DNA of 34,783 nt from Chloroflexota bacterium (GTDB lineage Bacteria; Chloroflexota; Anaerolineae; JAAYEA01): positions 1 to 34,783 of the forward strand of contig JAAYEA010000378.1 in NCBI GenBank assembly GCA_012689325.1. The letters run 5' to 3'. This document shows positions 3,091 through 19,985 of the stretch, in pieces; position 1 is the first letter of the stretch; each line of letters opens with the position of its first letter. The notes beneath the pieces are model-generated. The model did no database searches. It was not told the DNA's origin and worked only from the letters and a program-made list of their open reading frames with translations. A program made the translations under genes and the position numbers.

Positions 3091-3100
3091 TCTGCATCGA

Positions 3101-4645
3101 CTAGCGTTTACCCAGAATACCCGCTATCTCCTCGAACGGCGATAGGTACTGCACGCCCACGATCTGACCGTCCTCGCCAATCTCAATGTTCTGGAACACG
3201 GCCTGGGCCAGAGCTCGCTGATCTTCTGGCGTCGCCTGGTCCCACGTCTCCGGCAAGCAGGCCAGCATCCCCACCACCGCGTCGAACCGTTCCATCGGAA
3301 CCTTGCCATGTGGCAAAAGTGACGCCTGCCGGCGCGCCTGGGCGATCTCCGCGGCGATCTCCCGCCGCTTGGCCGAGAACTCGGCCTCGCTGATGATCCC
3401 CTTGGAGCACATGCGGATGAACCCATCGGCTTCGATCTCCAAGGTACTTATCCGGCACCCGAGCTCCACGCGCCGCTTCTCGTTGGCGTCTCCTTTGACG
3501 ATACGCTCGTACTCGGATCGCAGCGCGGGCACCTGCTCGGGCACCACCCGGATCTGGGCCAGCCGCGCCCGCACCTGGCGCATGATGTCCTCGGCGCGGT
3601 AGTGCTTTAGCTGATCCTGCCCCTGGTGCTGGACGCAGTAGTAGACGTATATCCGCGTTCGCACCGATGAGCTGGCCTCATAGTAGGCGCCCGTGAGCCT
3701 GACGCCTCTCTGCCATAGCAGGCCGGAGAGGGGGAACACGCGCCCGGAGGTCCTGGCGCGGCGTTGCCCCAGCCGCTCTTGCGCGTCCTGCCACTGTTCT
3801 TCGGTTATCAGCGGCTCCCAGTCGCCCTGTCCCACAATGCCGAACGCGGGGCTTACGAGCCTGCCCGCGTAGAACGGATTGGCGAGGATGTTCCTGACGG
3901 TGAGCCGCATCCAGCCATTCGCCCCGCGTCTCGGACTGCGAATCCCCTCGCTGTTGAGCTGCTGGGCGATCTCCCCCGGGTTCAACCCATCGGCGAACAG
4001 GGCGAATATCCGCTTGACGACCTCGGCTCGCTCGGGATCTATCTCAATCCCCGCGTTGGTTTTGCTCCCGACCGAGGCCTTGACGTTGCAGTAGCCCGTG
4101 GGGGCCGACGCGCTCCACCCGCCAGCCTGCAACTTGGCCGCCTTGCCCTTCCTGCTCTCCTCGCGCAGGTTCATGACGTACCCCTGTGCGAGCACCTGTT
4201 GCAGGGTCCTGCTCATCCACCCGGTGTAGGTGGTGGAATCCACCTGGAGGTTGGCGGCACGGATGGAGACGCCGAACGCGGACAGGCGCTCCTCGGCCTG
4301 GAGCGCTTCGAGGAGGTTGCGCCCGAACCTGTCCCACTTGTGGATGGCCAGGTGGGAGAACAACCCCGCCTCGGCGTCGGCGAACATCTGGAGGTACTCA
4401 TCCCGCCCGGCCTCGCTGGTACCCGAGGCGATGTCGGTGTACTCGCGGTGCACGACCATGCCGGAGGGCTCGACCAGGGCGCGCATGATCTCCATCCGTT
4501 GCGCGGGGACGCCAAACTCGGGGTGCTGCAAATCCTCGCTGCTCACCCGGTAGTAGATGCCCCATGCCCGCGCTGGTTCCGACTTGCGTCGAACGGTGGT
4601 CTTTGCGATAGTAGACACGGTAGTTGGCTCAAACCTCCCGGTCAA
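3101..4645 (-). CDS. Large serine recombinase (phage integrase)
   Basis: This 514-residue protein would catalyse integration and excision of the element. The resolvase domain carries YYRVSS, with the catalytic serine at about residue 35, and HKWDRFGRNLLEA. The recombinase domain follows (RKGKAAKLQAGGWSASAPTGY; INxxGIRSPR-like helix-turn region), then a zinc-ribbon region and a C-terminal coiled coil (about residues 375-440). The ribbon is degenerate: where relatives have a CxxC pair, this one reads SGLLWQRGVRLTG. The TTG at 4645 overlaps the preceding gene; a GTG at 4618 is an alternative nearer the conserved domain. The stop codon is only about 10 bp from the terminase remnant, so an attachment-site junction may lie at that point. 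A 14-bp palindrome lies inside the gene. Confidence 0.92.
   Translation of the reverse strand: MTGRFEPTTVSTIAKTTVRRKSEPARAWGIYYRVSSEDLQHPEFGVPAQRMEIMRALVEPSGMVVHREYTDIASGTSEAGRDEYLQMFADAEAGLFSHLAIHKWDRFGRNLLEALQAEERLSAFGVSIRAANLQVDSTTYTGWMSRTLQQVLAQGYVMNLREESRKGKAAKLQAGGWSASAPTGYCNVKASVGSKTNAGIEIDPERAEVVKRIFALFADGLNPGEIAQQLNSEGIRSPRRGANGWMRLTVRNILANPFYAGRLVSPAFGIVGQGDWEPLITEEQWQDAQERLGQRRARTSGRVFPLSGLLWQRGVRLTGAYYEASSSVRTRIYVYYCVQHQGQDQLKHYRAEDIMRQVRARLAQIRVVPEQVPALRSEYERIVKGDANEKRRVELGCRISTLEIEADGFIRMCSKGIISEAEFSAKRREIAAEIAQARRQASLLPHGKVPMERFDAVVGMLACLPETWDQATPEDQRALAQAVFQNIEIGEDGQIVGVQYLSPFEEIAGILGKR
3303..3316. repeat. TTGCCATGTGGCAA palindrome, copy 3
   Basis: Same palindrome with T for C at the centre, inside the integrase gene, where it is read as LPHGK on the minus strand. 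Confidence 0.9.
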
Positions 4646-5837: not shown

Positions 5838-6908
5838 ATGACGGTGCGGGACGCCGGCGAGGTCATCAGCATCACCGACCTGGTGCCGGACGAGCACAAC
5901 GCGAGGGTCCATAGCGCGCGAGGTGTGGGCCTGATCGCCGACGGCATGGGCAAGGTCGGCGCGGCCCGCTCCATCGTGATCGATGAGGGCTGCCGGGTGT
6001 TGGCCGGGAACGCCACGGTGCGGGCTGCGGCTCAGGCGGGGATCTCGCGCATCCTGGTGGTGGATGCCGATGGCCGGACCCTGGTGGCGGTCCGCCGGCG
6101 GGGCCTGGATGAATCCGGCAAGCGAGCGCTGGCCTACTACGATAACCGCACCGGGGAGCTGTCGAGCTGGGACCCGGAGCAGATCGCCGCCGATGCCGCG
6201 CAAGGGCTGCCGGCCATGAGCGAGCTCTTTTCCGAGGCGGAGCTCGCCGAGATCCTCAGCAGGGCGGAGGTCCAGGCGGCCACGCCCGAGGCAACGGAGC
6301 CGGGAGCAGAGGAGGCCGTGGCGCCTGAGAGGGAGCCCCAGGAGCCGGATCCGCTGGGCAAGGTCCTGTCCAGGCTGCTGGTGAGGCCGACCTGGAACCG
6401 GAAGCGGACGGTGTCCTTCCTCTCCATCCGCAAGTGGAACGCCGCCACCAAGGCCGCCGACCTGGCGGCGCTGACGGCGGCGAAGGACGAGTGCGGGCCC
6501 GACCTGGTGGAAACGGTGGCCACCGACGTGGTGGAGCACCTGCGCCCGCTGTTGGGGACCTGCTCGGGCTTGTGGATCGCCACGCCGCCCCCGGGCTACC
6601 ACAGCGGCGGGCCCCACCTGGCCACCGAGGCGGCCAGGGTCGTGGCGGCCAGGCTGGGCTGCGCGCGGGTGCAGGCCTTCGCCGACCGACCGCGGAGCTC
6701 CCGCAGCCACCCCCGCCATTTCCAGGAGCGGGGCGAGCTGGCGCTATGGCCCGAGGTTCCGGAGGGTCCCTGCCTGTTGCTGGACGACATCGCCACCACG
6801 GGGACCACCATCGAGGAATGCGCGCGGCTACTGCGGCGCGGGGAGCTGGTCCTCCCGGTGGTGTGGCTGTACGAGACGGGTCTCGACGCCGCGGCGCCTG
6901 GCATATGA
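5838..6908 (+). CDS. ParB-like domain fused to a phosphoribosyltransferase
   Basis: A 356-aa two-domain protein. Residues 1-140 are a phage-type ParB N-terminal domain (LVPDEHNAR; VLAGNATVRAA in place of the GHGRLxAA box; AYYDNRTGELSSWDPEQI). After a Glu/Pro-rich linker (about 145-180), residues 190-350 look like a type I phosphoribosyltransferase of ComF kind, with the PRPP-binding loop CLLLDDIATTGTTIEE at about 312-327 (Asp316, Asp317). Stand-alone ParB-like proteins near terminase genes are common in phages; this fusion is unusual. The first 130 residues are about 90% identical in DNA to the gene at 7277. AGAGG lies 8 nt before ATG. The 3' end overlaps the opposing gene by 81 bp. The substrate base is unknown. 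Confidence 0.85.
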   Translation: MTVRDAGEVISITDLVPDEHNARVHSARGVGLIADGMGKVGAARSIVIDEGCRVLAGNATVRAAAQAGISRILVVDADGRTLVAVRRRGLDESGKRALAYYDNRTGELSSWDPEQIAADAAQGLPAMSELFSEAELAEILSRAEVQAATPEATEPGAEEAVAPEREPQEPDPLGKVLSRLLVRPTWNRKRTVSFLSIRKWNAATKAADLAALTAAKDECGPDLVETVATDVVEHLRPLLGTCSGLWIATPPPGYHSGGPHLATEAARVVAARLGCARVQAFADRPRSSRSHPRHFQERGELALWPEVPEGPCLLLDDIATTGTTIEECARLLRRGELVLPVVWLYETGLDAAAPGI

Positions 6909-7211
6909 GACGGTGTAGCAGGTGCCGCCCCGGGGCCGGCCATCGTAGCAGGCGACCAGGAGGTCGGCCAAGTCGACCATCTGCCGGTCTCTGATCAGGG
7001 GCGCCGCCCGCCCGTACTGATCGTAGGCGGGCCGGATGACGAGCTGGGGAATGTCGTGGGCTTGGGCGTACCGGGCCACCTGGGCATCGAAGCCGGCGGC
7101 GCCGCCGTGCACCCAGACGGCGCCGGGGAACTCGGCGGCCAGGGCGGCCAGCTCCCGCTCATCGGTCACGCGATCTCGGTGGCCTGTGAAAGTGACGTTG
7201 ATACCACTCAT
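6828..7211 (-). CDS. SLOG-like (Rossmannoid nucleotide-sensing) protein
   Basis: A 127-aa protein with a strand-turn start (NVTFTGHRD), a VHGGAAGFDAQVARYA loop-helix and a C-terminal RDRQMVDLADLLVACYDGRPRGGT segment. This is the pattern of the SLOG/YspA-like families thought to bind or process nucleotide-derived ligands; the exact subfamily is uncertain. ATG at 7211 is chosen because a near-perfect promoter ends 7 nt before it, implying a leaderless message. It is the only minus-strand gene inside the rightward operon, tail-to-tail with the ParB-phosphoribosyltransferase gene, and seems to have been inserted between the two ParB copies. Confidence 0.75.
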   Translation of the reverse strand: MSGINVTFTGHRDRVTDERELAALAAEFPGAVWVHGGAAGFDAQVARYAQAHDIPQLVIRPAYDQYGRAAPLIRDRQMVDLADLLVACYDGRPRGGTCYTVSYARRRGVETRLVQPHHREDQLPAPQ

Positions 7212-7218
7212 TGTGTTG

Positions 7219-7247
7219 ATTATACCACATGAACTCGGGCCGGTCAA
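7219..7247 (-). promoter_or_regulatory. Promoter of the SLOG-like gene (leaderless)
   Basis: On the minus strand TTGACC (7247-7242), a 17-bp spacer and TATAAT (7224-7219). Seven nucleotides separate the -10 box from the ATG, so transcription should begin at or next to the start codon. Confidence 0.8.
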
Positions 7248-7276
7248 GGCCCCAGTGCGGCGAAGGAGGTCGCGAG

Positions 7277-7933
7277 GTGACGACGCAGGACGCCGGCGAG
7301 GTCATCAGCATCCACGACTTGGTGCCGGACGAGCGCAACGCCAGGCGGCACAGCGAGCGGGGCGTGGGCCTGATCGCCGACGGCATGGGCAAGGTTGGCG
7401 CGGCCCGCTCCATCGTGATCGACGAGGCCGGCCGCATCCTGGCCGGGAACGCCACGGTGCAGGCCGCGGCCCGAGCGGGGATCTCGCGCCTCCTGGTGGT
7501 GGACGCCGACGGCCGGACCCTGGTGGCGGTTCGCCGGCGGGGCCTCGACGAGCCCAGCAAGCGGGCGCTGGCCTACTACGACAACCGCACCGGGGAGCTG
7601 TCGGATTGGGACCCGGAGCAGATCGCCTCCGACGCCGCGCAGGGCCTGCCGGCCATCCACGCGATCTTTACCGACGCCGAGCTGATGCAACTCATGGGCC
7701 AGGCTGAGGTCGCCGGGGCCGGCTTGGGGACGGAGAGCAGGGCGGCATACGCCTTCCTCGATGCGATGGACGCCGGCGAGGTGGAGCGGGCTGCCCCGGC
7801 GGCGCCGCGGCGAGGCTACCCCCTGGCCATCGTGCTGGACCACGACGAGTACGCGACCTGGGTGGCGGCCAAGGAGGAGATCGGCGTGAAGGATGACAAG
7901 CAAGCGCTGCTGGCGCTGTTGAGGATGGTCTAG
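7277..7933 (+). CDS. ParB-like protein, second copy
   Basis: A 218-aa paralogue of the gene at 5838: the ParB-like region matches almost residue for residue through WDPEQIAxDAAQGLPA. The C-terminal part differs, ending in a short domain with VLDHDEYATWVAAKEEIGVKDDKQALLALL that does not resemble a phosphoribosyltransferase. The GTG at 7277 is preferred over the upstream ATG because it aligns with the ATG of the first copy and has AAGGAGG 6 nt before it. Two bases separate its stop from the next gene. The role could be DNA binding or nicking during packaging or replication; this family is not well defined. Confidence 0.85.
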   Translation: MTTQDAGEVISIHDLVPDERNARRHSERGVGLIADGMGKVGAARSIVIDEAGRILAGNATVQAAARAGISRLLVVDADGRTLVAVRRRGLDEPSKRALAYYDNRTGELSDWDPEQIASDAAQGLPAIHAIFTDAELMQLMGQAEVAGAGLGTESRAAYAFLDAMDAGEVERAAPAAPRRGYPLAIVLDHDEYATWVAAKEEIGVKDDKQALLALLRMV

Positions 7934-7935
7934 CG

Positions 7936-8571
7936 ATGGCGGCTGTTGGGGGGCACTGGCTCAAGTCAGCGCAGGGGACGCGGTTTGTGACGGCGCCGGG
8001 CCCTCGCCGCGGCGCGCTGGAGGGTTTGCACCGCACGCTGCTGGGCCTGGCCGGCGATGACCCGACGCCGTATGACGAGTATGGCCACCGGGAGAGTCGC
8101 GAATATGGGGCCTACATCCTGGCCGATGGGACGACAGGGCGGATCGATGGAGAGAAAGCGGACAGCTGCATCGTCATCCCGGACGACCTCATCAACCGCC
8201 TGGCCGGCGCCCATTTCGTGCACACCCATCCCTCCGGCGGCTCGTTCAGCCTGGATGATGTCCTCCTGGCGCAACGCGCCAAGGTGGGCAGCCTGGCGGC
8301 CGTGGGCGTGGACGCCGGCGGGCGCAGGTGGCGGTACACCGTCCGGCCGGGGCCCGGGGGCTGGAAGCATCGCGACGCATACATAAGCGCCAGGGCCGAG
8401 GTCGAAAAGGAGGTCTACCGCCGGGGTTGGATCCGGCTCGACCTGGCCAGAGCGGCCGGAAGGGCAGACAAGACCTTCAAGACCGCGCTGGAGATCTGGC
8501 ATCGGGACCAGGTGATGAAGCGGCTGGCCGCCAGGACCGGCCTGGAGTACACGCGAGAGAGGATACGATGA
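7936..8571 (+). CDS. Tagged protein 1: JAMM-type metallopeptidase-like
   Basis: A 211-aa protein beginning with the shared tag (MAAVGGHWLK). Its body has the JAMM/MPN+ signature: Glu56 in EYGAYILADGT, then HTHPSGGSFSLDD with His96, His98, Ser105 and Asp108 as expected for zinc binding. JAMM enzymes cleave isopeptide or peptide bonds, often at the end of ubiquitin-like or sulphur-carrier proteins; phage versions process tail or host proteins. The target here is unknown. Its stop overlaps the ATG of a 36-aa basic protein (ATGA), a pairing repeated at 10753/11333. The tail of the protein is basic and helical. Confidence 0.8.
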   Translation: MAAVGGHWLKSAQGTRFVTAPGPRRGALEGLHRTLLGLAGDDPTPYDEYGHRESREYGAYILADGTTGRIDGEKADSCIVIPDDLINRLAGAHFVHTHPSGGSFSLDDVLLAQRAKVGSLAAVGVDAGGRRWRYTVRPGPGGWKHRDAYISARAEVEKEVYRRGWIRLDLARAAGRADKTFKTALEIWHRDQVMKRLAARTGLEYTRERIR

Positions 8572-8678
8572 TGGCAACCAAAAAGGGCGGATTCACCATC
8601 GACAAGACCGACCGCGGCCCCCGCTATGGCCCCGAGCAGGAGCGCAAGCGGCCGAGCAAGCCCAAGAAGGGGAAGTGA
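8568..8678 (+). CDS. 36-aa basic protein with conserved KRPSKPKKGK tail, copy 1
   Basis: Starts MMATKKGG and ends KRPSKPKKGK. It overlaps the JAMM gene before it by 4 bp. The last 33 bp are identical in DNA to the end of the 36-aa gene at 11333, although the front halves differ. Both copies follow a JAMM gene and stop 3 nt before the ATG of the next gene, so this tail DNA (aagaaggggaag) may also serve as the ribosome site for the following gene. It might be a substrate or partner of the JAMM protein, or a small nucleic-acid-binding peptide. Confidence 0.65.
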   Translation: MMATKKGGFTIDKTDRGPRYGPEQERKRPSKPKKGK

Positions 8679-8681
8679 CGG

Positions 8682-9929
8682 ATGCTTGACGTGTATTGGG
8701 GCGAGTTCATGATCTCGCCGTTCCCCCTGGAGTGGGCGGGCGACCAGTGCTCGCACGCCTGCGTCTACTGCTTCGCCAACCTCCAGAAGAAGCATGGCGC
8801 CCAGGACCGCCGGCAGGCACAGATCCAGTCGGACATGCGGCTGCTGGCCAACTACCACACGCGCCACGCCTGGGCCGCCTACCTGCTGCGGGAGGGGTAT
8901 CCCGTGCTCCTGAGCAACCGCACGGACCCTTTCAGCAAGAACAACCACCAGCAGGCCCTGGCCGTGATGCGCGTGATGCACGAGATGGGCATCCCCATGA
9001 GCTTCCAGACCCGCGGCGGCTATGGGATCGAGGACGCCCTGGCGTTCCTCTCCCCCTCCTGTTGGTACGTCTCCATTGAGACGATGGACGACGACCTGGG
9101 CCAGCGCCTGAGCCCCGGCGCGCCGGCGCCCAGCGAGCGGATCCGGCTGATCCGGCGGCTGCGGGAGGCGGGCCACGTCGTGGTGGTGGGCTTCAACCCC
9201 TGCGTGCCGGAGTGGCAGCCCGACCCGGAGCCGCTGCTGAAGGCGGTCAAGCAGGCCGGCGCCTGGGGCGTCTGGATCGCCTCCCTGCACCTGGGCAGGC
9301 GCCAGGCGGCCAACCTGACCGACCACCAGCGGGAGGTCGTGGGCGAGGAGCTGCTCGGCCGGGTCGTGGGCAAGCGGCAATACAGCGAGATCGACAAGGC
9401 CGCCTACCTGGCGGCGGACGACTGCGCCCGCAGCCTGGGCCTGGAGGTCTACGCGTCGAGGCAGCCCTTCCCCTCGCGCTACTGGGAGCCGTCCCACGCC
9501 CTCTACCCCAAGCTCTTCCCCACCCACCAGGACGTGATCAACCACGCTTTCGCGCAGGGCTGGGACCAAACCAAGCCGCTGAGCTTTGAGGAGGTCTGGG
9601 AGGTCATCGGCGGGCAGTTCCCCGCCGGCGTTGGCCCGCTGGACAGCTACCTGGGCTCCACGGCGCACAACATCTGGCACGACCACCAGGTGCCGACGCA
9701 GATGACCTACAAGCAGCTCCTGGCGCTGGCCTGGATGGAGCCCCGGGTGGAGTTCTGCCTGGCCCGCGGCTACAGCTTTGCCTACGCCCTGCAGGAGACC
9801 GAGACGGGCTACGAGATGATGAAGGACGACCAGGACATGATCAAGATCGTCTTCGTGCCCGAGGCCACGCCGGCATGGTATGAGCTCGTTACCTCAGAGC
9901 CCCAGGAGACGGCACAGGATGGCGGCTAG
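8682..9929 (+). CDS. Radical SAM protein
   Basis: A 415-aa protein with the iron-sulphur motif CSHACVYC (Cys23, Cys27, Cys30; CX3CX2C), a TDPFSK segment, an FQTRGG strand and a WYVSIETMDDDL strand. These resemble the spore photoproduct lyase-like and related radical SAM families, with a C-terminal part I cannot assign. Such enzymes use S-adenosylmethionine to start radical chemistry on DNA, RNA or peptides. It sits inside the array of tagged genes, and its last 11 bp overlap the start of the next one. Possible roles are nucleic-acid repair or modification, or modification of the tagged proteins; the sequence does not decide. Confidence 0.85.
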   Translation: MLDVYWGEFMISPFPLEWAGDQCSHACVYCFANLQKKHGAQDRRQAQIQSDMRLLANYHTRHAWAAYLLREGYPVLLSNRTDPFSKNNHQQALAVMRVMHEMGIPMSFQTRGGYGIEDALAFLSPSCWYVSIETMDDDLGQRLSPGAPAPSERIRLIRRLREAGHVVVVGFNPCVPEWQPDPEPLLKAVKQAGAWGVWIASLHLGRRQAANLTDHQREVVGEELLGRVVGKRQYSEIDKAAYLAADDCARSLGLEVYASRQPFPSRYWEPSHALYPKLFPTHQDVINHAFAQGWDQTKPLSFEEVWEVIGGQFPAGVGPLDSYLGSTAHNIWHDHQVPTQMTYKQLLALAWMEPRVEFCLARGYSFAYALQETETGYEMMKDDQDMIKIVFVPEATPAWYELVTSEPQETAQDGG

Positions 9930-10398
9930 TGGGGGACATTGGGTAAAAGGATCCTCTGGGGCGGTGACCTTTGCCGCGGAGGGCGGTGGCCCGGGCGGCA
10001 GCAGCCGGCCCACACCAAACAAGCCGATCCCCGACAAGCTCTGGCAAGAGTATTACCCCAAGGGCGTCTTTGAGAACGTTGTCGGTGGCGCGCAGGAGGC
10101 TTACGGGCGCCCACACGACTGGCTCGATACCATTGACGCGCCGAACGCCTATGAGGCGGCCAAGAAGTTTGGGCAGGGATGGTGGAGGGATGGGCCGCGC
10201 AAAGTGCGGCGCCTGCTGGGAGACACGCCCATCAACCGTTTCATTTTCGAGGCTGCCCGCGGGACCAAGGCCTTCGAGGTCTGGAGCGCGGGAGGTGGCA
10301 CGAACAAATGGTATATAACCGAGACACCCCGCACGTGGCCTCGCGCCCGGGGCAAGAAGGGCGTGCCCCTGTGGTCACAGGTGAATAAGGGTCGTTGA
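9919..10398 (+). CDS. Tagged protein 2, unknown body
   Basis: A 159-aa protein beginning MAASGGHWVKGSSG. The body is Trp/Tyr-rich (LWQEYYPKG; WWRDGPRKVRRLLGDTPINRFIFEAARG) and ends with a basic stretch (WPRARGKKGVPLW). The start is set by the tag and by AGGAG 11 nt upstream; a longer frame upstream lies inside the radical SAM gene. About 30 bp around this start are identical to the start of the next gene (10411-10441), indicating recent copying. I do not recognise a family. Confidence 0.8.
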   Translation: MAASGGHWVKGSSGAVTFAAEGGGPGGSSRPTPNKPIPDKLWQEYYPKGVFENVVGGAQEAYGRPHDWLDTIDAPNAYEAAKKFGQGWWRDGPRKVRRLLGDTPINRFIFEAARGTKAFEVWSAGGGTNKWYITETPRTWPRARGKKGVPLWSQVNKGR

Positions 10399-10417
10399 TG
10401 AGGTTTGGAGGCACAGG

Positions 10418-10741
10418 ATGGCGGCTAGTGGGGGACATTGGACCAAAGCGAGCACGTTCGTCCGTTCCTCTTTTTCGGATGAGCTGGATGCGTCGGAGCG
10501 CAGAAGGCGAGCACAAGAGCAAGAGATGGCGGCCGCGGCCAAGGCCCACGGCGCCCGGTACAGGGTAGACATCTCGGAGTACGGCGCCACCACGTATCGC
10601 CGCTACGTGATCACCACCAAGGACGGCCGCCGGCGGAGCTTCACCAACCCGGATGAGGCCCAGCAGTTCATCAAGGACCTCGGGGCGCTGCAACCGAAGG
10701 GCGAGCGCTGGCAACCCGGCATCCCGATCAAGTGGGTCTAG
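10418..10741 (+). CDS. Tagged protein 3, small unknown body
   Basis: A 107-aa protein, MAASGGHWTKAST, then an acidic/basic helix (DELDASERRRRAQEQEMAAA) and a compact beta-rich part with RYVITTKDGRRRSFTNPDEAQQFI, a pattern of strand pairs followed by a helix that resembles the body of the protein at 13135. TTTGGAGG lies 10 nt upstream. Function unknown. Confidence 0.75.
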   Translation: MAASGGHWTKASTFVRSSFSDELDASERRRRAQEQEMAAAAKAHGARYRVDISEYGATTYRRYVITTKDGRRRSFTNPDEAQQFIKDLGALQPKGERWQPGIPIKWV

Positions 10742-10752
10742 GGGGGCAAGGC

Positions 10753-11352
10753 ATGGCCGCAACAGGAGGGCATTGGAGCAAGAGCGCCAGGGGCAGCCTG
10801 GATTGTCGGCCGGCCGGCGGCCAGCTGCAGCATCAGAGAATCACCGAGTTTGCGCCCCACGACGCCGCGCTCATCGAGGGGACGCGGCGCCATGGCAAGG
10901 AGATGGGCTATCTCATCTTTGCCGATGGGACCGTGTCGAAGGCGGTCACGGGGGGCCAGACGTCGATCAGCACCGCGAAACTGCGCCAGGTGACGGGGCT
11001 GCAATCCACGGAGGGCGGCGTGTTCACCCACACGCACCCGGCCCACAAGGAGGTGCCCTCCACCCTCTCGCCCGCCGACATCGCCTTCGCGGCCTATCAC
11101 AACCTGGCGGAGATCCGGGCGGTGGCGCTCACCGCAAGCGGCAAGGTGAAGGTCTACAGCATGAAGCGCGGCCCCAAGGGCTGGCCGTCGCCATCGGAGA
11201 TCAAGTACGACCACAAACACTTTACCCGGCAGCTCAACGCCCGGGCCCGGGCCGTGGGGATGGGCGACGCCGAGTGGTACAAGGCACACGAGGTCTATTG
11301 GCAGGAATACGCCAAAGCATGGGGGTTAACCTATGAAGAGCACTGGCAGTAA
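10753..11352 (+). CDS. Tagged protein 4: second JAMM-type protein
   Basis: A 199-aa protein beginning MAATGGHWSK. Like the protein at 7936, it has a Glu (Glu50) before GYLIFADGT and the metal motif HTHP-x9-SPAD with His93, His95, Ser106 and Asp109. The rest of the two sequences differ, so they are distant paralogues. A 36-aa basic gene overlaps its end. The start is placed at the tag; an in-frame ATG 21 bp upstream overlaps the preceding gene and is less likely. Confidence 0.78.
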   Translation: MAATGGHWSKSARGSLDCRPAGGQLQHQRITEFAPHDAALIEGTRRHGKEMGYLIFADGTVSKAVTGGQTSISTAKLRQVTGLQSTEGGVFTHTHPAHKEVPSTLSPADIAFAAYHNLAEIRAVALTASGKVKVYSMKRGPKGWPSPSEIKYDHKHFTRQLNARARAVGMGDAEWYKAHEVYWQEYAKAWGLTYEEHWQ

Positions 11353-11443
11353 CAAGGGTGGCCGGCCTCCGGCCATCGACGACCGGGAGATCCTGAAGGG
11401 CCCGCCGCCCAAGCGGCCGAGCAAGCCCAAGAAGGGGAAGTGA
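11333..11443 (+). CDS. 36-aa basic protein with conserved KRPSKPKKGK tail, copy 2
   Basis: Begins MKSTGSNKGGRPPAIDD and ends with the same ten residues as the gene at 8568; both are exactly 36 aa. It starts 20 bp inside the JAMM gene. Its ribosome site is weak, so translation is likely coupled. The spacing from its tail to the next ATG is the same as in copy 1. Confidence 0.6.
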   Translation: MKSTGSNKGGRPPAIDDREILKGPPPKRPSKPKKGK

Positions 11444-11446
11444 ACC

Positions 11447-11791
11447 ATGGCCGCAAGTGGAGGACATTGGGTCAAGGCCTCGGGGGGCAGGAACCCGCGC
11501 TTCGCGGCCCAGGCCGATGGCGACTTTGGTGCGATGCAGAAGCGGGCGCACACCGTGGCGACGGGCGCCCGGGCCGAGCGCAGGAAGCTGCTCATGGCGG
11601 AGCGGGCGTGGCGACGGGAGGTCGCGGAGCCCACGCCGGACGGCGCCCTCCCGCGGAACCGGTCCTATGGCAGCCGCACCGACTATGAGAACCTGCATCA
11701 GAACGCCGGTCGGGAGCGTTCCAGGCGCCTGCGGGCCGTCGAACGGCGGGCCAGGCAGATCCTGTCCGGCCAGCGGTCGTGGCTAGACTAG
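11447..11791 (+). CDS. Tagged protein 5, basic helical body
   Basis: A 114-aa protein, MAASGGHWVKASGG, then an Arg/Ala-rich, probably helical body (AERRKLLMAERAWRREV; RERSRRLRAVERRARQIL). The charge suggests nucleic-acid or capsid contact, but there is no known motif. Confidence 0.75.
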   Translation: MAASGGHWVKASGGRNPRFAAQADGDFGAMQKRAHTVATGARAERRKLLMAERAWRREVAEPTPDGALPRNRSYGSRTDYENLHQNAGRERSRRLRAVERRARQILSGQRSWLD

Positions 11792-11792
11792 C

Positions 11793-12194
11793 ATGGCGGC
11801 GAGCGGTGGCCACTGGAGCAAGGGAGCCGGCGGAGCGACGTTCGTCGCCTCGCCGCCCAAGGCGTCCTCGCCGGCTCCACCCGCAGCGCTGGCCAAGACG
11901 CTGGGGGAGATCGAGCGTCTCTCCCAGACCGCCCGGGCGCGGCGAGAAGGCGCCAGGGATGCCAGCCTGAGGGCCCTGCGCCCGGCGGACGCCGACTGGC
12001 TTTCCCAGGACGAGCGCAACCGGCTCGACAGATTGCAGGGGCAGGCCGCCATCCTGGGGCGCCAGGTCTTTGGCACCAGCCAGGAGCGCGTGGCACTGAA
12101 GCGCGCCCTGCGCGCCGCCGGCGTGACCTTTGACCACAACGCCCCTCTGGCCACCTTGCAGCGGCTGGTGGCCGGCCTGAAGGCCCGGAGGTAG
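11793..12194 (+). CDS. Tagged protein 6, unknown body
   Basis: A 133-aa protein, MAASGGHWSKGAGGATFV, a Pro/Ala linker, then two helical segments (LGEIERLSQTARARREG; DERNRLDRLQGQAAILG). One base separates it from the gene before it and there is no clear ribosome site, so coupled translation is likely. Confidence 0.75.
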   Translation: MAASGGHWSKGAGGATFVASPPKASSPAPPAALAKTLGEIERLSQTARARREGARDASLRALRPADADWLSQDERNRLDRLQGQAAILGRQVFGTSQERVALKRALRAAGVTFDHNAPLATLQRLVAGLKARR

Positions 12195-12197
12195 ACG

Positions 12198-12641
12198 ATG
12201 GCCGCGAGCGTTGGGCATTGGGTCAAGGGGACCGGAGGCGCTCCGTTCGTGGCGCCCTCGGGCGACTTTCATCGGGCCCAGGATGGCTTCGAGACCAGCC
12301 GCACGGACGCGACGCCTCCCGGTTACCAGGACATCACCGAGGACGTCAGCACCGGCGTCTGGGAGGTCAAGGCCGAGGCGCCCAAGGTGGGCACCAGGTT
12401 CGTGGCCAAGAACCCTGGCTCGGGCTGGTACCTGAATCCCGACGATGAGGGGCCGCGCACCTACCGGGTGGATCGCTGGATCGTGACGGGTCATCGCCGG
12501 CTGAAGGCCGGCTGGACCGTGACGATGGATCGGGAGGGCGGCGCCAGGTGGCAGGCGGAGCGGGGCAAGAGGTTCGATCAGGTGGCCAAAGAGTGGCACC
12601 AGGACAACGCCCGGGTGTATGGGCGGGGCCCAGGAGGATAG
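12198..12641 (+). CDS. Tagged protein 7, beta-rich body
   Basis: A 147-aa protein with the one variant tag, MAASVGHWVKGTGG (Val for Gly5). The body is rich in strands and aromatic residues (GVWEVKAEAPKVGTRFVAK; GWYLNPDDEGPRTYRVDRWIV; GWTVTMDREGGARW). GGAGG lies 6 nt upstream. No family recognised. Confidence 0.75.
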   Translation: MAASVGHWVKGTGGAPFVAPSGDFHRAQDGFETSRTDATPPGYQDITEDVSTGVWEVKAEAPKVGTRFVAKNPGSGWYLNPDDEGPRTYRVDRWIVTGHRRLKAGWTVTMDREGGARWQAERGKRFDQVAKEWHQDNARVYGRGPGG

Positions 12642-12644
12642 CTG

Positions 12645-13145
12645 ATGGCAGCGAGCGGAGGGCATTGGACCAAGAGCGCCAGCGGCCGGGCGATGTACCG
12701 CACGGCCGGCGGGGAGATCGGCGGCGCGCAGTGGATCGGCGAGGCCGTCAACAAGTGGGGCGCGACGATGACCATCACCGACATCCGCAGCGCCCTCGAC
12801 AGGGAGACGGACACCGGCTACAGGGAGAAGCTGCAACAGCGCGAGAAAGAGCTCAGGCTCAAGGTTGAGGAGCTGAAGCAGCGGGCGGAATCCCAGCCGC
12901 TGCGGGGGCTGGAGACCTTTGCCCCGGGCCAGATCTTCATGGATGCCGCCGGCAGGGTTCACAGGATGAAAGCCAAGTCGGGCAAGACGGCGCTCCTGGA
13001 GCCCCTGCTGTCCGGTTTCCGGCAGCCCCTGAGGTGGGGCAAGCCGGAGAGGGTGCGGTTTGCTTCCACGCAGGGGCGGCCCGTCGACGTGGCCACCATC
13101 GAGTTCATGCGGGGCAAGTTTGCGGAGGGCGCGAATGGCCGCTAG
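12645..13145 (+). CDS. Tagged protein 8, coiled-coil body
   Basis: A 166-aa protein, MAASGGHWTKSASG, then ITDIRSALDRETDTGYREK and a charged coiled coil (LQQREKELRLKVEELKQRAE), then a globular end. The coiled-coil part resembles the bodies of phage proteins that count insertions in nucleotide-binding loops, but this is weak. Its last 11 bp overlap the start of the next tagged gene. Confidence 0.75.
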   Translation: MAASGGHWTKSASGRAMYRTAGGEIGGAQWIGEAVNKWGATMTITDIRSALDRETDTGYREKLQQREKELRLKVEELKQRAESQPLRGLETFAPGQIFMDAAGRVHRMKAKSGKTALLEPLLSGFRQPLRWGKPERVRFASTQGRPVDVATIEFMRGKFAEGANGR

Positions 13146-13503
13146 TGGAGGGCATTGGAGCAAGGGCGCCGGCGGGGCGGTGTTCGTGGACAGGACCAGC
13201 CCCTACCGGATCACGCAAAGCTCGTCCGGCCAGTTCTGGGTGAGCAACAAAACCCGTCGCGATTCCGCGGGCAGCTCGGTCACGGTGATGACGGCCAGCA
13301 GTCGCGAGGAGGCCGAGCGCTGGGTGGCCGCCCAGGCCAAGGGGGAGCGCACGCGACGACGCCACAAGGAGGCGGAGCGCCGCCAGATGATGATGGACGA
13401 CATCCGGCAGGGCTTCTATCGCAACATCCCGCTGAGCATGATCGCCGACGGCTCGCTGCGGAGGACGCTGGCCAGACTGCGCAAGCAGGGAGAGGACGTG
13501 TGA
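13135..13503 (+). CDS. Tagged protein 9, unknown body
   Basis: A 122-aa protein, MAASGGHWSKGAGGAVFV, a strand-rich part (YRITQSSSGQFWVSNK; SVTVMTASSREEAERWV) and a basic helix (ERTRRRHKEAERRQMMM). The strand-then-helix order resembles the protein at 10418. A longer upstream frame overlaps the gene before it and is rejected because the tag marks the start. Confidence 0.75.
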   Translation: MAASGGHWSKGAGGAVFVDRTSPYRITQSSSGQFWVSNKTRRDSAGSSVTVMTASSREEAERWVAAQAKGERTRRRHKEAERRQMMMDDIRQGFYRNIPLSMIADGSLRRTLARLRKQGEDV

Positions 13504-13504
13504 G

Positions 13505-13852
13505 ATGGCCGCCACGGGCGGGCACTGGGTCAAGGGGGCCGGCGGATCCCGGTTTGTGGGAGGCGTGCAGGCGGTGAGGAGGGAGGATGCGGGGCGCGGC
13601 AAGCGCAAGGTGGAGATTGCGCCTTATACGTGGCAGGACGAGCCCAAGGGGATGCGCAGCATCTGGGGATACGTCGCCGGCATCTTTGCGCGCTACAACC
13701 GTGATTCCGGTCAGCTCGAATACGCAGCCAGCCCGCAGACGCTGGGATATTACGGCATGACAGAGTCCAGGGCCCGCGACCTGATCGCCCGCTGGAACAG
13801 GGGCGAACGGTGGGTGGCCCGCGATGCCATGACCACGGAAGGTGAGAAATAA
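13505..13852 (+). CDS. Tagged protein 10, unknown body
   Basis: A 115-aa protein, MAATGGHWVKGAGGSRFV, then a Tyr/Trp-rich body with IWGYVAGIFARYNRDSGQLEYAASPQTLGYYGM. GAGAGG lies 12 nt upstream and one base separates it from the gene before. No family recognised. Confidence 0.75.
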   Translation: MAATGGHWVKGAGGSRFVGGVQAVRREDAGRGKRKVEIAPYTWQDEPKGMRSIWGYVAGIFARYNRDSGQLEYAASPQTLGYYGMTESRARDLIARWNRGERWVARDAMTTEGEK

Positions 13853-13864
13853 GCGAGGTAGCCG

Positions 13865-14323
13865 ATGGCCGCAGCAGGTGGACACTGGAGCAAAAGCCGA
13901 GGGGGCGCCCTGATCTTCAAGGGCGCCAGCGGCGAGATCGCCAGCGGCAAGGTCGCCGGCGTGGGTGGGCAGGCCGCCGCGCCCGGGGCCTCTCGCGAGG
14001 CCATGTCCAAGCGCTATGACCAGCTCTCGGCCAGGTACAACAAGATGGTCGATCGCTGGGGCAGCCTGACGATCGAGCAGCAGTGGGCCGCGAAGGACAA
14101 GCTCGATGCGCTGGATCGGGAGATGAAGGGGCTCTGGCGTCGGATGGAGGCCCGGCAGAAACCCGCCAAGACGGGATTGGAGCGGGCCGAGGAGGAGTAC
14201 CGCAGGGCGAAAGCCGCCTGGGATCGCGCCGGCTGGAACCCCAGCGATGCCGTAGTCAAGCGCTGGCACAAGGCCCAGGAGACGATGCGCCGGGCCCGCT
14301 TGGAATCGGAGCAGGGTAGCTAG
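13865..14323 (+). CDS. Tagged protein 11, helical body
   Basis: A 152-aa protein, MAAAGGHWSKSRGG, then mostly helix: KRYDQLSARYNKMVDRW, KDKLDALDREMKGLWRRME, ERAEEEYRRAKAAWDRAG. It is likely a helical bundle or coiled coil. GAGG lies 8 nt upstream. Confidence 0.75.
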   Translation: MAAAGGHWSKSRGGALIFKGASGEIASGKVAGVGGQAAAPGASREAMSKRYDQLSARYNKMVDRWGSLTIEQQWAAKDKLDALDREMKGLWRRMEARQKPAKTGLERAEEEYRRAKAAWDRAGWNPSDAVVKRWHKAQETMRRARLESEQGS

Positions 14324-14343
14324 GCGCAGAAACGAGGTAGACG

Positions 14344-14790
14344 ATGGCAGCAAGCGGAGGGCACTGGGTCAAGGGAGCCGGCGGGGCGAGCTTTGTGCAG
14401 ACAGGCAAGGCGAGCTTCACGCCGGTCGCTGGCTTGCGGAGGAGCGGGGCCGTGTCAAAGGAAGCTGCGCGCATGGCCGGAGAGGATTACGCGCAACCCG
14501 TCTACAGGTCCATAGCGCGAGACATCGAGGTCCGTATGGCGGCCCAAAGGCAAGGCGTCCAGAACGCGGGGCTGTCCACCGCCGACGCGGAGCGGTATCT
14601 GCGAGGCGTTTGGTCCACCGAGGCCGCGGGGCAGAGAAGGTTTCGTGACGAACTGCGCGCCCAACTGGGCGCCTGGAGGCGTGGGGCGAGGGTCACGGCG
14701 GGGCCATCGGCCCGCAGCGTAGCGCAAGTGTTGAGCGGGCTGAAAACCGCCCGAGACAACTTGAGGCGACTGAAACAGGCCGGAGGTTAG
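14344..14790 (+). CDS. Tagged protein 12, unknown body
   Basis: A 148-aa protein with the tag closest to consensus, MAASGGHWVKGAGGASFV, then a helical body (SKEAARMAGEDYAQPVYRSI; FRDELRAQLGAWRRGA; RSVAQVLSGLKTARDNLRRL). It is the last gene of the array; the terminase small subunit starts 3 bp after it, so the array is tied to the packaging operon. Confidence 0.75.
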   Translation: MAASGGHWVKGAGGASFVQTGKASFTPVAGLRRSGAVSKEAARMAGEDYAQPVYRSIARDIEVRMAAQRQGVQNAGLSTADAERYLRGVWSTEAAGQRRFRDELRAQLGAWRRGARVTAGPSARSVAQVLSGLKTARDNLRRLKQAGG

Positions 14791-14793
14791 TCA

Positions 14794-15525
14794 ATGGTGC
14801 CTACTGAATGGGAACGTCAGCCCGGCGAGCCGAGCCGCTGGTACGACCGTTTCGTGCGCTACTACCTGCGCGCCGAGGGCGAGCGGACGCTCTTGGGCGC
14901 CTATCGCCGGTGGCTGTCCGTGGAACGGCCCGAAACGGCCCGAAAGAGCCCGATCACGGGCGCCCCCGGCAGCTGGAAAAAGCACTTTGAGGAATGGCGC
15001 TGGAAGGAACGCGCCGAGGAGTATGACGTCGAGCTCCGGCGGCTGGACGGGGTCCAGTGGGAGAAGCACCGCAAGGAGGTCCGGGATCGGAGCTGGAATG
15101 CCTCGGGCCGGCTGTGGGACAAGGTCAACGCCATGCTGGCCTTCCCAGTCTCGGAGCAGCAGGTCGAGCAGGATGGGCAATCGATCACCATCTCGCCGGC
15201 CCGCTGGACGTTTCGCGACGCCGCGTCCGTGGCGGAGACCGCGGACCGGCTGGGGCGCCTGGCGGTGGGGCTGCCCACGGAGTACACCGAGGCCAAGGTC
15301 GAGGGCGAGGTGGAGGTCACCCACGAGGGCGGGGGAAAGACGCCGTGGTGGGAAGTCCTGGACGAGGCCGGCCTGGACGCGGCCATCGGCCGGGTGGAGC
15401 GGGCGGACGTTCCCCCACAGGACACCGGCGACGATGACGACGATTGGGACGAGGCCGCGCCGCCCGTCCCGGGCGCGCAGGCTTCTGACGACGGGCCCAG
15501 CTCTGACGATGAGGGCGAGGAATAG
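14794..15525 (+). CDS. Putative terminase small subunit
   Basis: A 243-aa protein directly before the large subunit. The N-terminal half is Trp/Arg-rich (PSRWYDRFVRYYLRAEGERTLLGAYRRWL; SWKKHFEEWRWKERAEEYD), the pattern of DNA-recognition subunits that bind packaging sites. The C-terminal tail is very acidic (DDDDDWDEA; SSDDEGEE), which may contact the large subunit or imitate DNA. GGAGG lies 8 nt before ATG. The assignment rests on position and composition more than on a diagnostic motif. Confidence 0.7.
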   Translation: MVPTEWERQPGEPSRWYDRFVRYYLRAEGERTLLGAYRRWLSVERPETARKSPITGAPGSWKKHFEEWRWKERAEEYDVELRRLDGVQWEKHRKEVRDRSWNASGRLWDKVNAMLAFPVSEQQVEQDGQSITISPARWTFRDAASVAETADRLGRLAVGLPTEYTEAKVEGEVEVTHEGGGKTPWWEVLDEAGLDAAIGRVERADVPPQDTGDDDDDWDEAAPPVPGAQASDDGPSSDDEGEE

Positions 15526-15530
15526 GCAAT

Positions 15531-17273
15531 GTGGCGATTGGCGCCGATAACCTGCTGGTCTGGATGTACGCCCAGCACTTCACGACCCCCAAGGGCGACG
15601 ACGTCCGCTGGCAACGCTGGCTGGCCGCGATCTATCGCGACACGACCACGGACATGTGCATCCAAAAGTGCTCCCAGGCCCGCATCTCCACCTATGCCAT
15701 CTACCGGATCCTGCACTTTACCATCACCCATAGCGCGACGGTGGTCTTCACCGAGCCCACGCGGGACCAGGCGCAAAAGTTCTCCTCAAGCCGCCTGCGC
15801 CCGCTGGTGGAGCAGCACGAGTACCTGAGGAAGCGCCTCTCGGGCGGCACCGAGCTGATCAAGGTCCGCCCCTCGCCGAAGGGAGCCTATCGCAGCCACG
15901 TGCATTTCCGGGGCACGACGGGGGAGCGGGAGGCCATCTCGGTGGACGCGGACGAGATCGTGGTGGACGAGGTGGACGAGTCCAATGCGCCGGTGGTGGC
16001 CAGCATGGAGACCCGCCTGATCGCCTCCAAGTGGAAGCGGCGGCTGTTCATCTCGACGCCCTCGGTGCTCCGGTACGGGATCAACGCCTACTGGGCCATC
16101 TCGGACCAGATGACCTGGCTGTGGCGGTGCCCGCGGTGCAGCCGCGAGATCGACCCGGTGGCCGACCACTACCGCATCATCGACCTGGAGCGCCGGCGCT
16201 ACGTCTGCTACCACTGCGGCAAGGTGCTGGACAAGGCCAGGATCAACACGGATCCCCAGCTCTCGGGGTGGGTGGCCAAGCGGCCGGGGGCGGCCATGCG
16301 GGGCTACCAGATCACCCAGGCCATGATGAACTATGTGACCGTGGACAGCCTGGTGGAGGCGCAGGCCCTCCAGAAGCCGCGCAAGTTTGAGAACTACTGG
16401 CTGGGCATCCCCTCGGACGAGGGCGTGGGGCAGGTGACCCGGGCGATGATCGAGGCCAAATGCTGGCTCTCCCGGCATCCGCGCAGCCCCCAGGCGGTGG
16501 GCCGGCGCCGGGCCATGGGGGTGGACCAGGGCGACCGCATCTATGCCGAGGTCTCGGAGATCGACGAGGCCACGGGCCGCTCGCACATCGTGGACCTGCC
16601 CACCACGCGAAGCTGGGAGGACCTGTACCGCCTGATGAACCAGCACGAGATCGAGTGCTGCGTCATCGACGCCCGGCCGGAGGTGCGGCTGGCCCGCAAG
16701 ATGGCCCACGACTTTCCGGGGCGGGTCTTTTGCTGCGAGTACACCAACGTGCACGAGCCCGTCCGCTGGACGACGGAGGAGCGGTATTTCATCCAGGCCA
16801 ACCGCACGCAGGCCCTGGACGCCGCGGCCGAGGACATCGCCGCGGGGACAACCCAGCTCTACTGGCCCAGCGACGACGGGATCGACTGCGAGGGAGGCGG
16901 CTCGGGGGGAAACCCGCGGGAGGTCATCGGGGGCTTCATCCAGCACTGGGAGAACGAGCGCCGGCTGGAGCCCGAGAAAGCCGACGACCTGCCGACCTGG
17001 AAGGAGGTCGGGCCCGACCACCGGGCCCACGCCGACGTCTACCGCAAGATCGCCGAGTCGCGGATCCGGGGCAAGCCGATCAACGAGCTGTGGGTGGCCA
17101 CGGCGGGGAGCCGGGTCTTTACGCCCTCGCCGGCCCTGGCGGACCTGCAGGACCCGCAAGAAGGCTCCCTCAGCAGCCGGCTCTTCCAGGCGCCGGAGGA
17201 GGAGCTGCCCGCGGCGCCAAAGGCGGACCTGGGCCGGCCACCGGCCAAGACACTGTACCGGGGAAGGGGATAA
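15531..17273 (+). CDS. Terminase large subunit (GpA-like)
   Basis: A 580-aa DNA-packaging motor. The ATPase region has an unusual Walker A-like KCSQARIST (residues 46-54; Arg where relatives have Gly) and a Walker B IVVDEVDE (Asp146, Glu147). A zinc ribbon follows (CPRC at 200-203, CYHC at 226-229), then a nuclease domain beginning MGVDQGDRIYAEV (about 325) with CVIDARPEVRLAR. The GTG at 15531 is used because no ATG lies in this frame nearby. A broken relative lies at 2410-3090 and keeps the same odd Walker A, so the variation is a lineage feature and not a recent mutation. Confidence 0.9.
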   Translation: MAIGADNLLVWMYAQHFTTPKGDDVRWQRWLAAIYRDTTTDMCIQKCSQARISTYAIYRILHFTITHSATVVFTEPTRDQAQKFSSSRLRPLVEQHEYLRKRLSGGTELIKVRPSPKGAYRSHVHFRGTTGEREAISVDADEIVVDEVDESNAPVVASMETRLIASKWKRRLFISTPSVLRYGINAYWAISDQMTWLWRCPRCSREIDPVADHYRIIDLERRRYVCYHCGKVLDKARINTDPQLSGWVAKRPGAAMRGYQITQAMMNYVTVDSLVEAQALQKPRKFENYWLGIPSDEGVGQVTRAMIEAKCWLSRHPRSPQAVGRRRAMGVDQGDRIYAEVSEIDEATGRSHIVDLPTTRSWEDLYRLMNQHEIECCVIDARPEVRLARKMAHDFPGRVFCCEYTNVHEPVRWTTEERYFIQANRTQALDAAAEDIAAGTTQLYWPSDDGIDCEGGGSGGNPREVIGGFIQHWENERRLEPEKADDLPTWKEVGPDHRAHADVYRKIAESRIRGKPINELWVATAGSRVFTPSPALADLQDPQEGSLSSRLFQAPEEELPAAPKADLGRPPAKTLYRGRG

Positions 17274-18197: not shown

Positions 18198-19985
18198 ATG
18201 TCGCCACGGATGCCCGCCTGGGCCACCAAGCTGATCGAGGATCACCTCTCGCGGCCCATCGCCGCGCAGGTCCTGGAGATCATGCGCGAACAATGGGCGG
18301 AGGTCTCGCCCGGCTCAGAGGTCCACGGCCCCACCACTAGCGCCTCCCGTCCGCGCTCCGCGGCGGAGATCGCCCTGGCGCAGCCCACCGCCGGGGCGGA
18401 GACCAGCGCTGGGGGCAAGCCGCCGCAGGGCGAGCGGAGCCGGGCCGGCGATGCCGGGCCCTATGGCGTCGCCGGGCTGGGGGCGCCGGATGAGGCCGTG
18501 AGCTGGGAGCAGAAGGAGCTGATGCTCAAGCACTATCTGGTGCGCTTCTGCCTCGACGTGCGCGCCATCCCGCTGATCCTGGTCTTTCGCAACGAGGCCG
18601 GCCAGGGCTGGGACATCAAGGTGCAGGACGACAACGAGCAGGTCCAGCAGTTCGTCCGCGCCGCGCTGCAACGCGTCCTCCTGCGCCTGGTCCGCGAGGC
18701 GCAGACGGCCCGCTTTCACGGCTTCTACGCCGGCGAGAAGGTCTGGACCACCGCCTCGGCCCAGGAGCTGGGGCTGGAGGGCGACCGCACCTACAACGTG
18801 CTGGACAAGGTCAAGGGCAACCACCCCAAGACGGTGAAGCTCCTGCGCGACGAGAAAACGGACCAGTTCGACGGCTACGAGCAGAACGCGCCCGGCGTGG
18901 CCAAGCCGATCCGGATCCCCGCGGCGAAGGCGTTCGTCTACACCTACCGCAAAGAGTTCGGCAACCTCTACGGCCGCGGCCTGGCCGAGGTGATGTTCAC
19001 CCCCTGGTGGTGGCTGGAGTTCATCTGGCGGGCCCTGATGCGCTACATGGAGCGGATGGGGACGCCGGTGGCGGTCTGCTACGCGCCGCAGGGCGAGAAG
19101 GTCGCCGACGCCTCCGGCACCATGCGGGATGCCATGGACATCGGCCTCAACCTGGCCATCGACGTGGGCCGCTCCAACGCCGTGGTGCTCCCCTCCACGA
19201 GCCACGCCGCCGAGGAGGGGGGCGGGCCCAAGTGGCGGCTGGAGTACCTGCAGGATTCCGGCGTCGCCGCCCAGTTCGAGGGCGTGCTCGCGCGCCTGGA
19301 GACGGCGCTGATCCGCGCGGCGGGGGAGCCGGACCAGGTGATCGGCCAGCAAGCCCAGGGGCACACGGGGGCCTACGCGGCCTGGAAGGTGCCCGCCGGC
19401 ATCTTTGAGCAGACGCTGGAGCTGGACCTGGCCGAGTTCACCGAGCACCTCAACGCCTACCTGCTGCCCGACCTGGGGCGCTGGAACTATGGCGAGCGCT
19501 ATGGGCGCCGCGGGATGATCTCCGCCACAGTGGTGGGGATGGACAGCTCGGCGCTGGAGCGGCTGATGACGGTGCTGCCCGCGCTGCTGGCCAAGCCCGA
19601 GGGCGACTACATCGACGCGCTGGAGGCGTTCCGCCAGGCAGATCTGCCCGTGCTCTCGGACCAGGAGATCGAGGCGCGCAAGGCGGAGCGGCAGGCGCTG
19701 GTGGAGGCGTTCCAGCAGCAAGCGGCGGCCGGGGCCCCCACGGCCGGGGCGGGCGGCGCCCAGCGGCCCAGGGCCGGCGTGACGCCCATCGCCGGGGCCG
19801 AGCTGACCAACGCCGAGTTCCTCCGCTACGCGGCGGAAAAGATGATGGCCGCGGACGGGTTCATCACGATCCAGGGGCGCTCCGCGGCGGAGTTTCAGGA
19901 GAAGGCGCGCCTCTTGGCCGAGGCCGGCGTGCCCACCGATTGGCCGGTCCACCACGAGTGGATCGGCGCAGAGGAGGAGGGATAG
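18198..19985 (+). CDS. Portal protein (DUF935/Mu gp29-like)
   Basis: A 595-aa protein that would form the dodecameric DNA entry ring of the head. Features are EVMFTPWWWLEFIWRALMRYMERMGTPVAVCYAPQG, the QQAQGHTGAYAAWKV segment and LNAYLLPDLGRWNYG, all in the order seen in DUF935 portals. An Ala/Gly-rich, low-complexity region lies at residues 505-535. GAAGGAG lies 9 nt before ATG. It is followed by only a truncated minor-head-like gene, with no capsid or protease gene after it. Confidence 0.85.
   Translation: MSPRMPAWATKLIEDHLSRPIAAQVLEIMREQWAEVSPGSEVHGPTTSASRPRSAAEIALAQPTAGAETSAGGKPPQGERSRAGDAGPYGVAGLGAPDEAVSWEQKELMLKHYLVRFCLDVRAIPLILVFRNEAGQGWDIKVQDDNEQVQQFVRAALQRVLLRLVREAQTARFHGFYAGEKVWTTASAQELGLEGDRTYNVLDKVKGNHPKTVKLLRDEKTDQFDGYEQNAPGVAKPIRIPAAKAFVYTYRKEFGNLYGRGLAEVMFTPWWWLEFIWRALMRYMERMGTPVAVCYAPQGEKVADASGTMRDAMDIGLNLAIDVGRSNAVVLPSTSHAAEEGGGPKWRLEYLQDSGVAAQFEGVLARLETALIRAAGEPDQVIGQQAQGHTGAYAAWKVPAGIFEQTLELDLAEFTEHLNAYLLPDLGRWNYGERYGRRGMISATVVGMDSSALERLMTVLPALLAKPEGDYIDALEAFRQADLPVLSDQEIEARKAERQALVEAFQQQAAAGAPTAGAGGAQRPRAGVTPIAGAELTNAEFLRYAAEKMMAADGFITIQGRSAAEFQEKARLLAEAGVPTDWPVHHEWIGAEEEG

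Follow-up and report, generated by a model that had tools for sequence, protein, structure and literature searches.

The window analysed here, a 34,783-nucleotide stretch of Chloroflexota DNA (contig JAAYEA010000378.1), carries a prophage gene array in which twelve plus-strand genes, numbered W01 to W12 from 5′ to 3′, encode proteins that begin with the same short N-terminal tag (Table 1). An earlier reading made from the letters of the window (the sequence-only reading) had proposed twelve tagged open reading frames (ORFs) at 7936–14790, and all twelve starts proved correct. The run is not uninterrupted as that reading implied, since a radical S-adenosylmethionine (SAM) gene and a 36-amino-acid (aa) ORF lie between W01 and W02, and a second 36-aa ORF follows W04. 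Apart from the two gaps filled by these ORFs, genes of the array are spaced by 1–20 bp or overlap, and the array continues into the terminase genes: as previously noted, it ends 3 bp before terminase, the downstream gene being the small subunit, with the large subunit next. Several of the tagged genes are preceded by a GGAGG-type ribosome site.

Table 1 Features of the tagged-gene array and its surroundings in the window
Feature	Position	Strand	Length (aa)	Remarks
ParB-like gene	7229..7933	+		Immediately 5′ of W01; homologues adjoin the radical SAM gene in L016, L019 and L151
W01	7936..8571	+	211	Tag at 7936–7989; JAMM-motif body (E56, H96xH98, S105xxD108)
36-aa ORF	8568..8678	+	36	Untagged; overlaps end of W01; tail KRPSKPKKGK
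Radical SAM gene	8682..9929	+	415	CxxxCxxC; PA0069/Rv2578c-like
W02	9919..10398	+	159	Tagged; body without assigned family
W03	10418..10741	+	107	Tagged; body without assigned family
W04	10753..11352	+	199	Second JAMM-motif body
36-aa ORF	11333..11443	+	36	Untagged; overlaps end of W04; tail KRPSKPKKGK; identical in L009
W05	11447..11791	+	114	Tagged; body without assigned family
W06	11793..12194	+	133	Tagged; body without assigned family; missing in sister array
W07	12198..12641	+	147	Tag variant MAASVGHWVK; body without assigned family
W08	12645..13145	+	166	Tagged; body without assigned family
W09	13135..13503	+	122	Tagged; body without assigned family
W10	13505..13852	+	115	Tagged; body without assigned family; W10/W11 order swapped in L009
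W11	13865..14323	+	152	Tagged; body without assigned family
W12	14344..14790	+	148	Tagged; body without assigned family
Terminase small subunit	14794..15525	+		phrog_6299, E 1.2e-4; 3 bp past W12
Terminase large subunit, GpA type	15531..17273	+		phrog_675, E 2.9e-76
Mu-type portal protein	18198..19985	+		phrog_113

Residues M1, A2, A3, G6, H7, W8 and K10 are identical in all twelve proteins (MAAxxGHWxK), exactly the positions previously listed as invariant. G5 and G14 are each present in 11 of 12 (G5 is replaced by V in W07), and F17-V18 is the most frequent pair at its position, displaced by gaps in some genes. Across tag codons 2–10 the synonymous difference is 0.74, that is, saturated, and the non-synonymous difference 0.12; the corresponding values for control codons 21–60 are 0.59 and 0.72. 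The invariant sites are written with several synonymous codons (three for A2, four for A3, three for G6, and two each for H7 and K10). Silent sites are thus saturated while the peptide is kept, which indicates selection on the protein and rules out a DNA repeat. The 5.3 Mb genome contains 25 matches to the DNA form of MAxxxGHWxK (12 in the window, 10 in contig C429, 2 in contig C493, and 1 by chance), with no match to the reversed-pattern control in the same genome and none to the pattern itself in 59 related genomes. Across 399 further genomes of the phylum, the looser MAxxGGxWxK matched no more than once per genome, at scattered places. In a structural model of W01, residues 1–26 have a predicted local distance difference test score (pLDDT) below 50 and lie outside the predicted JAMM fold; the quality of this model, built from four sequences, is moderate (mean pLDDT 67.6).

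The bodies behind the tag are largely independent of one another. BLASTP comparison from residue 23 to the end found a single related pair among the twelve, W01 and W04 (28% identity, E 4e-8), both of which have E, HxH and SxxD of the JAMM motif. The W01 body matched the Pfam family Prok-JAB at E 0.03, below the cut-off, and neither a fold search with the W01 model nor a profile search of the PDB gave a significant match, so the JAMM label rests on the motif. The W07 body model folded too poorly to judge. The sequence-only reading had described bodies of 107–211 aa with different folds: their sizes and, save for W01/W04, their unrelatedness were borne out, as was JAMM at the level of the motif, and the labels coiled coil, helical and beta-rich gained no backing, as no family rose above threshold. 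Each tagged window protein has at most one recognisable domain. Both JAMM-motif genes have an overlapping 36-aa ORF at their 3′ end; the two ORFs are alike in their tail and in little else. Counterparts are present in the sister loci L011 and L009, that of the first ORF in L011 being near-identical with the tail KRRDKSKKGK. JAMM-motif gene and 36-aa ORF are possibly enzyme–partner pairs.

A sister array in the same genome revealed how such clusters change. Contig C429 (locus L009) has ten tagged genes, and contig C493 (locus L011) has two, in a segment comprising a ParB gene, the W01 orthologue, a new cargo gene and the radical SAM gene; the new cargo aside, this is the gene order of the window. 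The sister array is without W06, and its W07 orthologue starts out as W06, in its 5′ flank (97% identical) and its first 30 bases (100% identical), and continues as the W07 body, which places the crossover within the tag. L009 also has a new tagged gene, GNAT-like (E 2e-5), between W08 and W09. For several orthologues, silent sites have diverged more in the tag than in the body behind it (0.51 vs 0.03 for W07), as expected if neighbours exchange tags. The arrays are therefore sets of cassettes joined at the tag, whose bodies are gained, lost, reordered and re-joined. Within L009 (1–11206), the array is followed by genes that are not phage-like and its last tagged gene is shortened, which may mean that it is a prophage remnant or a misassembly.

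Tagged genes also occur in other phages. Our tag searches used exact DNA patterns with a fixed start context, from which diverged tags will have escaped, and many of the compared loci are contig fragments. Among 2.9 million viral contigs, these patterns retrieved real tagged genes in L016/L038, L017/L019, L039 and L040, together with three adjacent tagged genes in L104. A search from the radical SAM protein added L184 (MAASGGTWTK and MAASGGIWVK) and L151, which has four MASKGGSWK genes, one of them ~12 kb away among tail genes. The L151 tags have S or G at position 10 in place of K; judged by position and pattern, they are likely homologous to the window tag. The further tag-bearing lineages are thus five: L016, L019/L039/L040, L104, L184 and L151. 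Where the contigs have adequate flank, a radical SAM gene lies within a few genes of the tagged ones, mostly just 5′ of terminase, which answers the proposal of the sequence-only reading to look for the tag beside terminase elsewhere; the L040 contig starts ~100 bases before its tagged gene, so the upstream neighbour falls beyond the contig end. L019, L039 and L040 have closely similar flanks; the tagged gene is found ahead of ParB, between ParB and the radical SAM gene, or ahead of the small terminase gene, and each of these three slots has a different body. The GC content of tag-bearing phages ranges from 0.47 to 0.67 with a constant peptide core, which reads MA[A/S]xGGxW, followed by K in most and by a Gly-rich linker.

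Other candidates did not extend this list. All 28 DNA matches in bacterial and archaeal genomes (84,980 species) were judged to be chance from their reading frames, as was MATKGGAWDK, found by a looser scan in six contigs and internal to a longer reading frame in most. A tblastn search of the tag against 50,697 phage records gave no match at E 10, the tag being either absent there or too short to detect. The motif PAGxPxGGQWT of other prophage proteins, tried as a possible relative of the tag, did not match. In L063 (11190–11957) and L064 (11210–11956), the protein right after the radical SAM gene starts with MA[GS]Q.W.KNKKG[FY]M, a faint likeness to the tag; the L063 protein is ParB-like. Small Lys-rich ORFs with basic tails separate the tagged genes from the small terminase gene in L104 (5095–5313, 72 aa) and L205 (7324–7596, 90 aa; minus strand).

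The bodies found in these phages include recognisable effector-type enzymes. Tagged ADP-ribosyltransferases (ARTs; PF03496) are present in L104 (E 9e-12), L184 (E 3e-9) and L151 (E 1.4e-14, also matching solved ARTs). A tagged NUDIX body occurs in L184 (E 1e-12), and kinase-like tagged bodies in L104 and L184 show, by inspection, a G-loop, DxxxxN and DNG-like motifs; in L184, NUDIX and kinase share one tagged protein. Proteins homologous to the kinase, ART and NUDIX bodies occur in Pseudomonas phage Dolphis, Morganella phage Mecenats66 and Yersinia phage fHe-Yen8-01. The last encodes a 2,146-aa protein with kinase and ART matches, six genes before the large terminase, and a separate NUDIX protein, four genes before it; both are annotated as particle-associated. 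The tag is missing from the N-termini of the proteins in Dolphis and Mecenats66 and of the NUDIX protein in the Yersinia phage, and is consequently no intrinsic part of the kinase, ART or NUDIX domains. More generally, the tag as a normal part of one domain was rejected, given that the bodies are unrelated, that the tag is disordered in the W01 model, and that homologous bodies exist untagged.

All-against-all comparison of the regions identified the radical SAM protein as the sole family present in every tag-bearing lineage. The sequence-only reading had overlooked this gene, which accompanies the tag in every lineage with flank present. Identity between lineages is mostly 35–46%, and the nearest families are PA0069/Rv2578c and photolyase-like. 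As in ribosomally synthesized and post-translationally modified peptide (RiPP) systems, a CxxxCxxC radical SAM enzyme stands next to peptide genes. Peptide-modifying radical SAM enzymes usually have an auxiliary cluster (SPASM/Twitch) domain; in an alignment of eight sequences no such domain was seen, the three Cys of CxxxCxxC being the only invariant ones. On a 36-sequence tree with unresolved deep branches, the tag-bearing enzymes clustered and required two changes, a number as low as which was reached in 0 of 500 shuffles. Unbiased tag searches gave no convincing case of the tag without the enzyme where flank was readable. Many phages have the enzyme, often beside ParB, without the tag, which points to a role for it beyond the tag. 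Either this protein acts on the tag, as its partner or modifier, or it is a passenger by linkage.

ParB-like proteins are present in five of the six lineages (window and sister array counted as one): window/sister, L016, L019, L151 and L184. In L104, ~900 bases of contig precede the radical SAM gene. Around the window array itself, closely similar ParB-like N-terminal regions lie at 5838–6908 and 7229–7933, one fused to a phosphoribosyltransferase-like domain, and a YspA-type SLOG gene (6828–7247) sits between them on the opposite strand. At 2457–3097, on the minus strand, fragments of a large-subunit terminase gene that resembles the one at 15531 adjoin a serine recombinase (3101–4645), which suggests a prophage edge or remnant. 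Head modules differ among the tag-bearing phages. The window has the GpA-type large terminase and Mu-type portal; L016, L019 and L184 have a common block of portal (phrog_64), MuF-like, scaffold and capsid genes; L104 has capsid phrog_3990; and L151 has portal phrog_145 and capsid phrog_37569.

Based on these data, we propose, with a probability of about 0.58, that the tag is an N-terminal sorting label for virion-carried, injected effectors. The first 10 to ~18 residues would act as a transferable sorting tag. Small effector or host-conditioning proteins would be made late from the terminase operon, recognised by the tag during assembly and brought inside the virion, then ejected with the DNA to act on targets in the next host, its defences among them. 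Each gene is a cassette of ribosome site, tag and body, so that recombination at the tag allows bodies to be gained, lost and shuffled. Direct support comes from the tag and its conservation at the protein level, the independence of the bodies, cassette shuffling, recurrence beside terminase and the effector-type bodies; from these we infer encapsidation, injection, action in the next host and the identity of a binding partner. Host-directed enzymes made late make most sense if carried in the particle, and effector-type bodies together with particle-annotated homologues support a late-made, virion-packaged and injected set with one N-terminal address. The earlier proposal that diverse cargo carries a common address label is the best-supported reading and holds in part, in that the tag recurs on unrelated bodies in other phages, lies outside the predicted JAMM fold, is missing from some homologues and is borne by effector-type enzymes; packaging and a capsid partner are the parts we infer. 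Several points weigh against a packaging role. Most window bodies are without recognisable function, and the particle association in fHe-Yen8-01 is a GenBank annotation on which a literature search found no paper. The variation of head modules with a constant tag core is awkward for binding to a single capsid part, so that the partner would be a conserved protein (radical SAM or ParB) or an unmatched head protein, or the tag would be modified.

Because the radical SAM gene accompanies the tag, modification of the tag is a live rival, albeit one that we consider unlikely. The neighbouring enzyme would use the tag as its substrate or recognise it, and would modify the peptide (for example, at W8 or K10), and the modified N-terminus would be a functional signal or confer activity. 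Such a role would fit the enzyme being the only common family while terminase, portal and capsid types differ, the failure of unbiased searches to yield a convincing enzyme-free tag where flank is present, and the clustering of tag presence on the enzyme tree. In addition, the invariant Trp-x-Lys recalls, by analogy, the Trp-Lys C–C crosslink of darobactin, described in an extract of one report as a radical SAM product (PMC9055067). Modification fits poorly with the lack of invariant Cys beyond CxxxCxxC and of any sign of an auxiliary cluster domain in the eight sequences, with the nearest enzyme families, with the many tag-free phages that have the enzyme, and with S or G at position 10 in L151. 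A combined version, in which effectors are marked for loading by an N-terminus whose GGxW(xK) the enzyme has altered, appears rather improbable; if true, it would account for the tag and the enzyme being kept together through changes of head module. Alternatively, and with similarly low likelihood to modification as such, the tag may dock the proteins to a common partner in the infected cell, such as an anti-defence or takeover assembly that possibly includes the radical SAM or ParB protein. The recurrent linkage to these genes and the differing head modules would agree with such docking, although an operon that is late and linked to terminase would poorly serve a takeover of the producing cell, and body homologues elsewhere are annotated as particle-associated.

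The remaining explanations are weaker. Shared processing, which the sequence-only reading had offered as an alternative, would make the tag a proteolytic site removed in head maturation. By analogy it could draw on T4, whose capsid-targeting sequences are reportedly cut during maturation (Mullaney and Black, as their title has it), yet no separate protease gene is present among the head genes of the related L016 (a block of terL, portal, MuF-like, scaffold and major capsid); the idea has found no support so far and seems very unlikely. Finally, the conserved 5′ ends might be a DNA or RNA element, such as a recombination site or translation enhancer, with the peptide incidental. Recombination did occur within the tag, and ribosome sites precede several genes, but the saturated synonymous sites with retained amino acids largely refute this explanation, and the peptide core recurs over the whole GC range; we give it almost no credence.

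If tagged proteins are indeed packaged, a short searchable tag would permit listing of virion-delivered effectors in uncultured phages, including small proteins without a recognisable domain, and would constitute a further phage shipping code besides that of T4, on several head types. The data also raise the question of what a conserved radical SAM enzyme does beside terminase.

Several known systems resemble this arrangement in part. Encapsulin cargo-loading peptides likewise sort enzymes by a short peptide, in their case into an HK97-fold shell, as extracts of two reports describe (PMC8346489, PMC11866011); the present context is a phage, with a putative shell partner. MuF polymorphic toxins join a constant N-terminal delivery part to a variable effector part and are located in head modules (PMC5576092), as would be the case here, but MuF is a folded domain, and family scans found no MuF domain in the tagged proteins. 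Polyvalent proteins of phages, which are large and packaged and combine ART, ParB and other effector domains, have an overlapping domain set, as the kinase, ART and NUDIX homologues in fHe-Yen8-01, Dolphis and Mecenats66 illustrate, and DdrB-like ParB domains occur too. The tagged proteins, by contrast, are mostly separate and small, each with its own tag, rather than one fused polypeptide; several fused effector domains are absent from the window proteins, with the L184 NUDIX–kinase protein an exception elsewhere. For phage P1, an extract of one report describes a DarB N-terminal capsid-targeting sequence that directs defence proteins into the head (PMC9024508); the Dar proteins are large and follow a stepwise pathway, and a common short tag on many cargos is not described in that extract. 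The T4 internal head proteins (IPI, IPII, IPIII and Alt) are diverse defence proteins with only the capsid-targeting sequence in common (PMC3012670), and Alt is a packaged ART (PMC5512222). Here, too, otherwise unrelated proteins carry a short conserved N-terminus, and the two systems are alike in a variable set of proteins and in counter-defence or ADP-ribosyltransferase activities. They differ in the peptide, as far as is known, in the arrangement beside terminase with a radical SAM gene and up to 12 genes per cluster, in the types of head and perhaps, judging from the L016 head block with no separate protease gene, in the maturation protease. We claim no homology; the likeness is functional, and T4 offers the closest working precedent for the tagged arrays.

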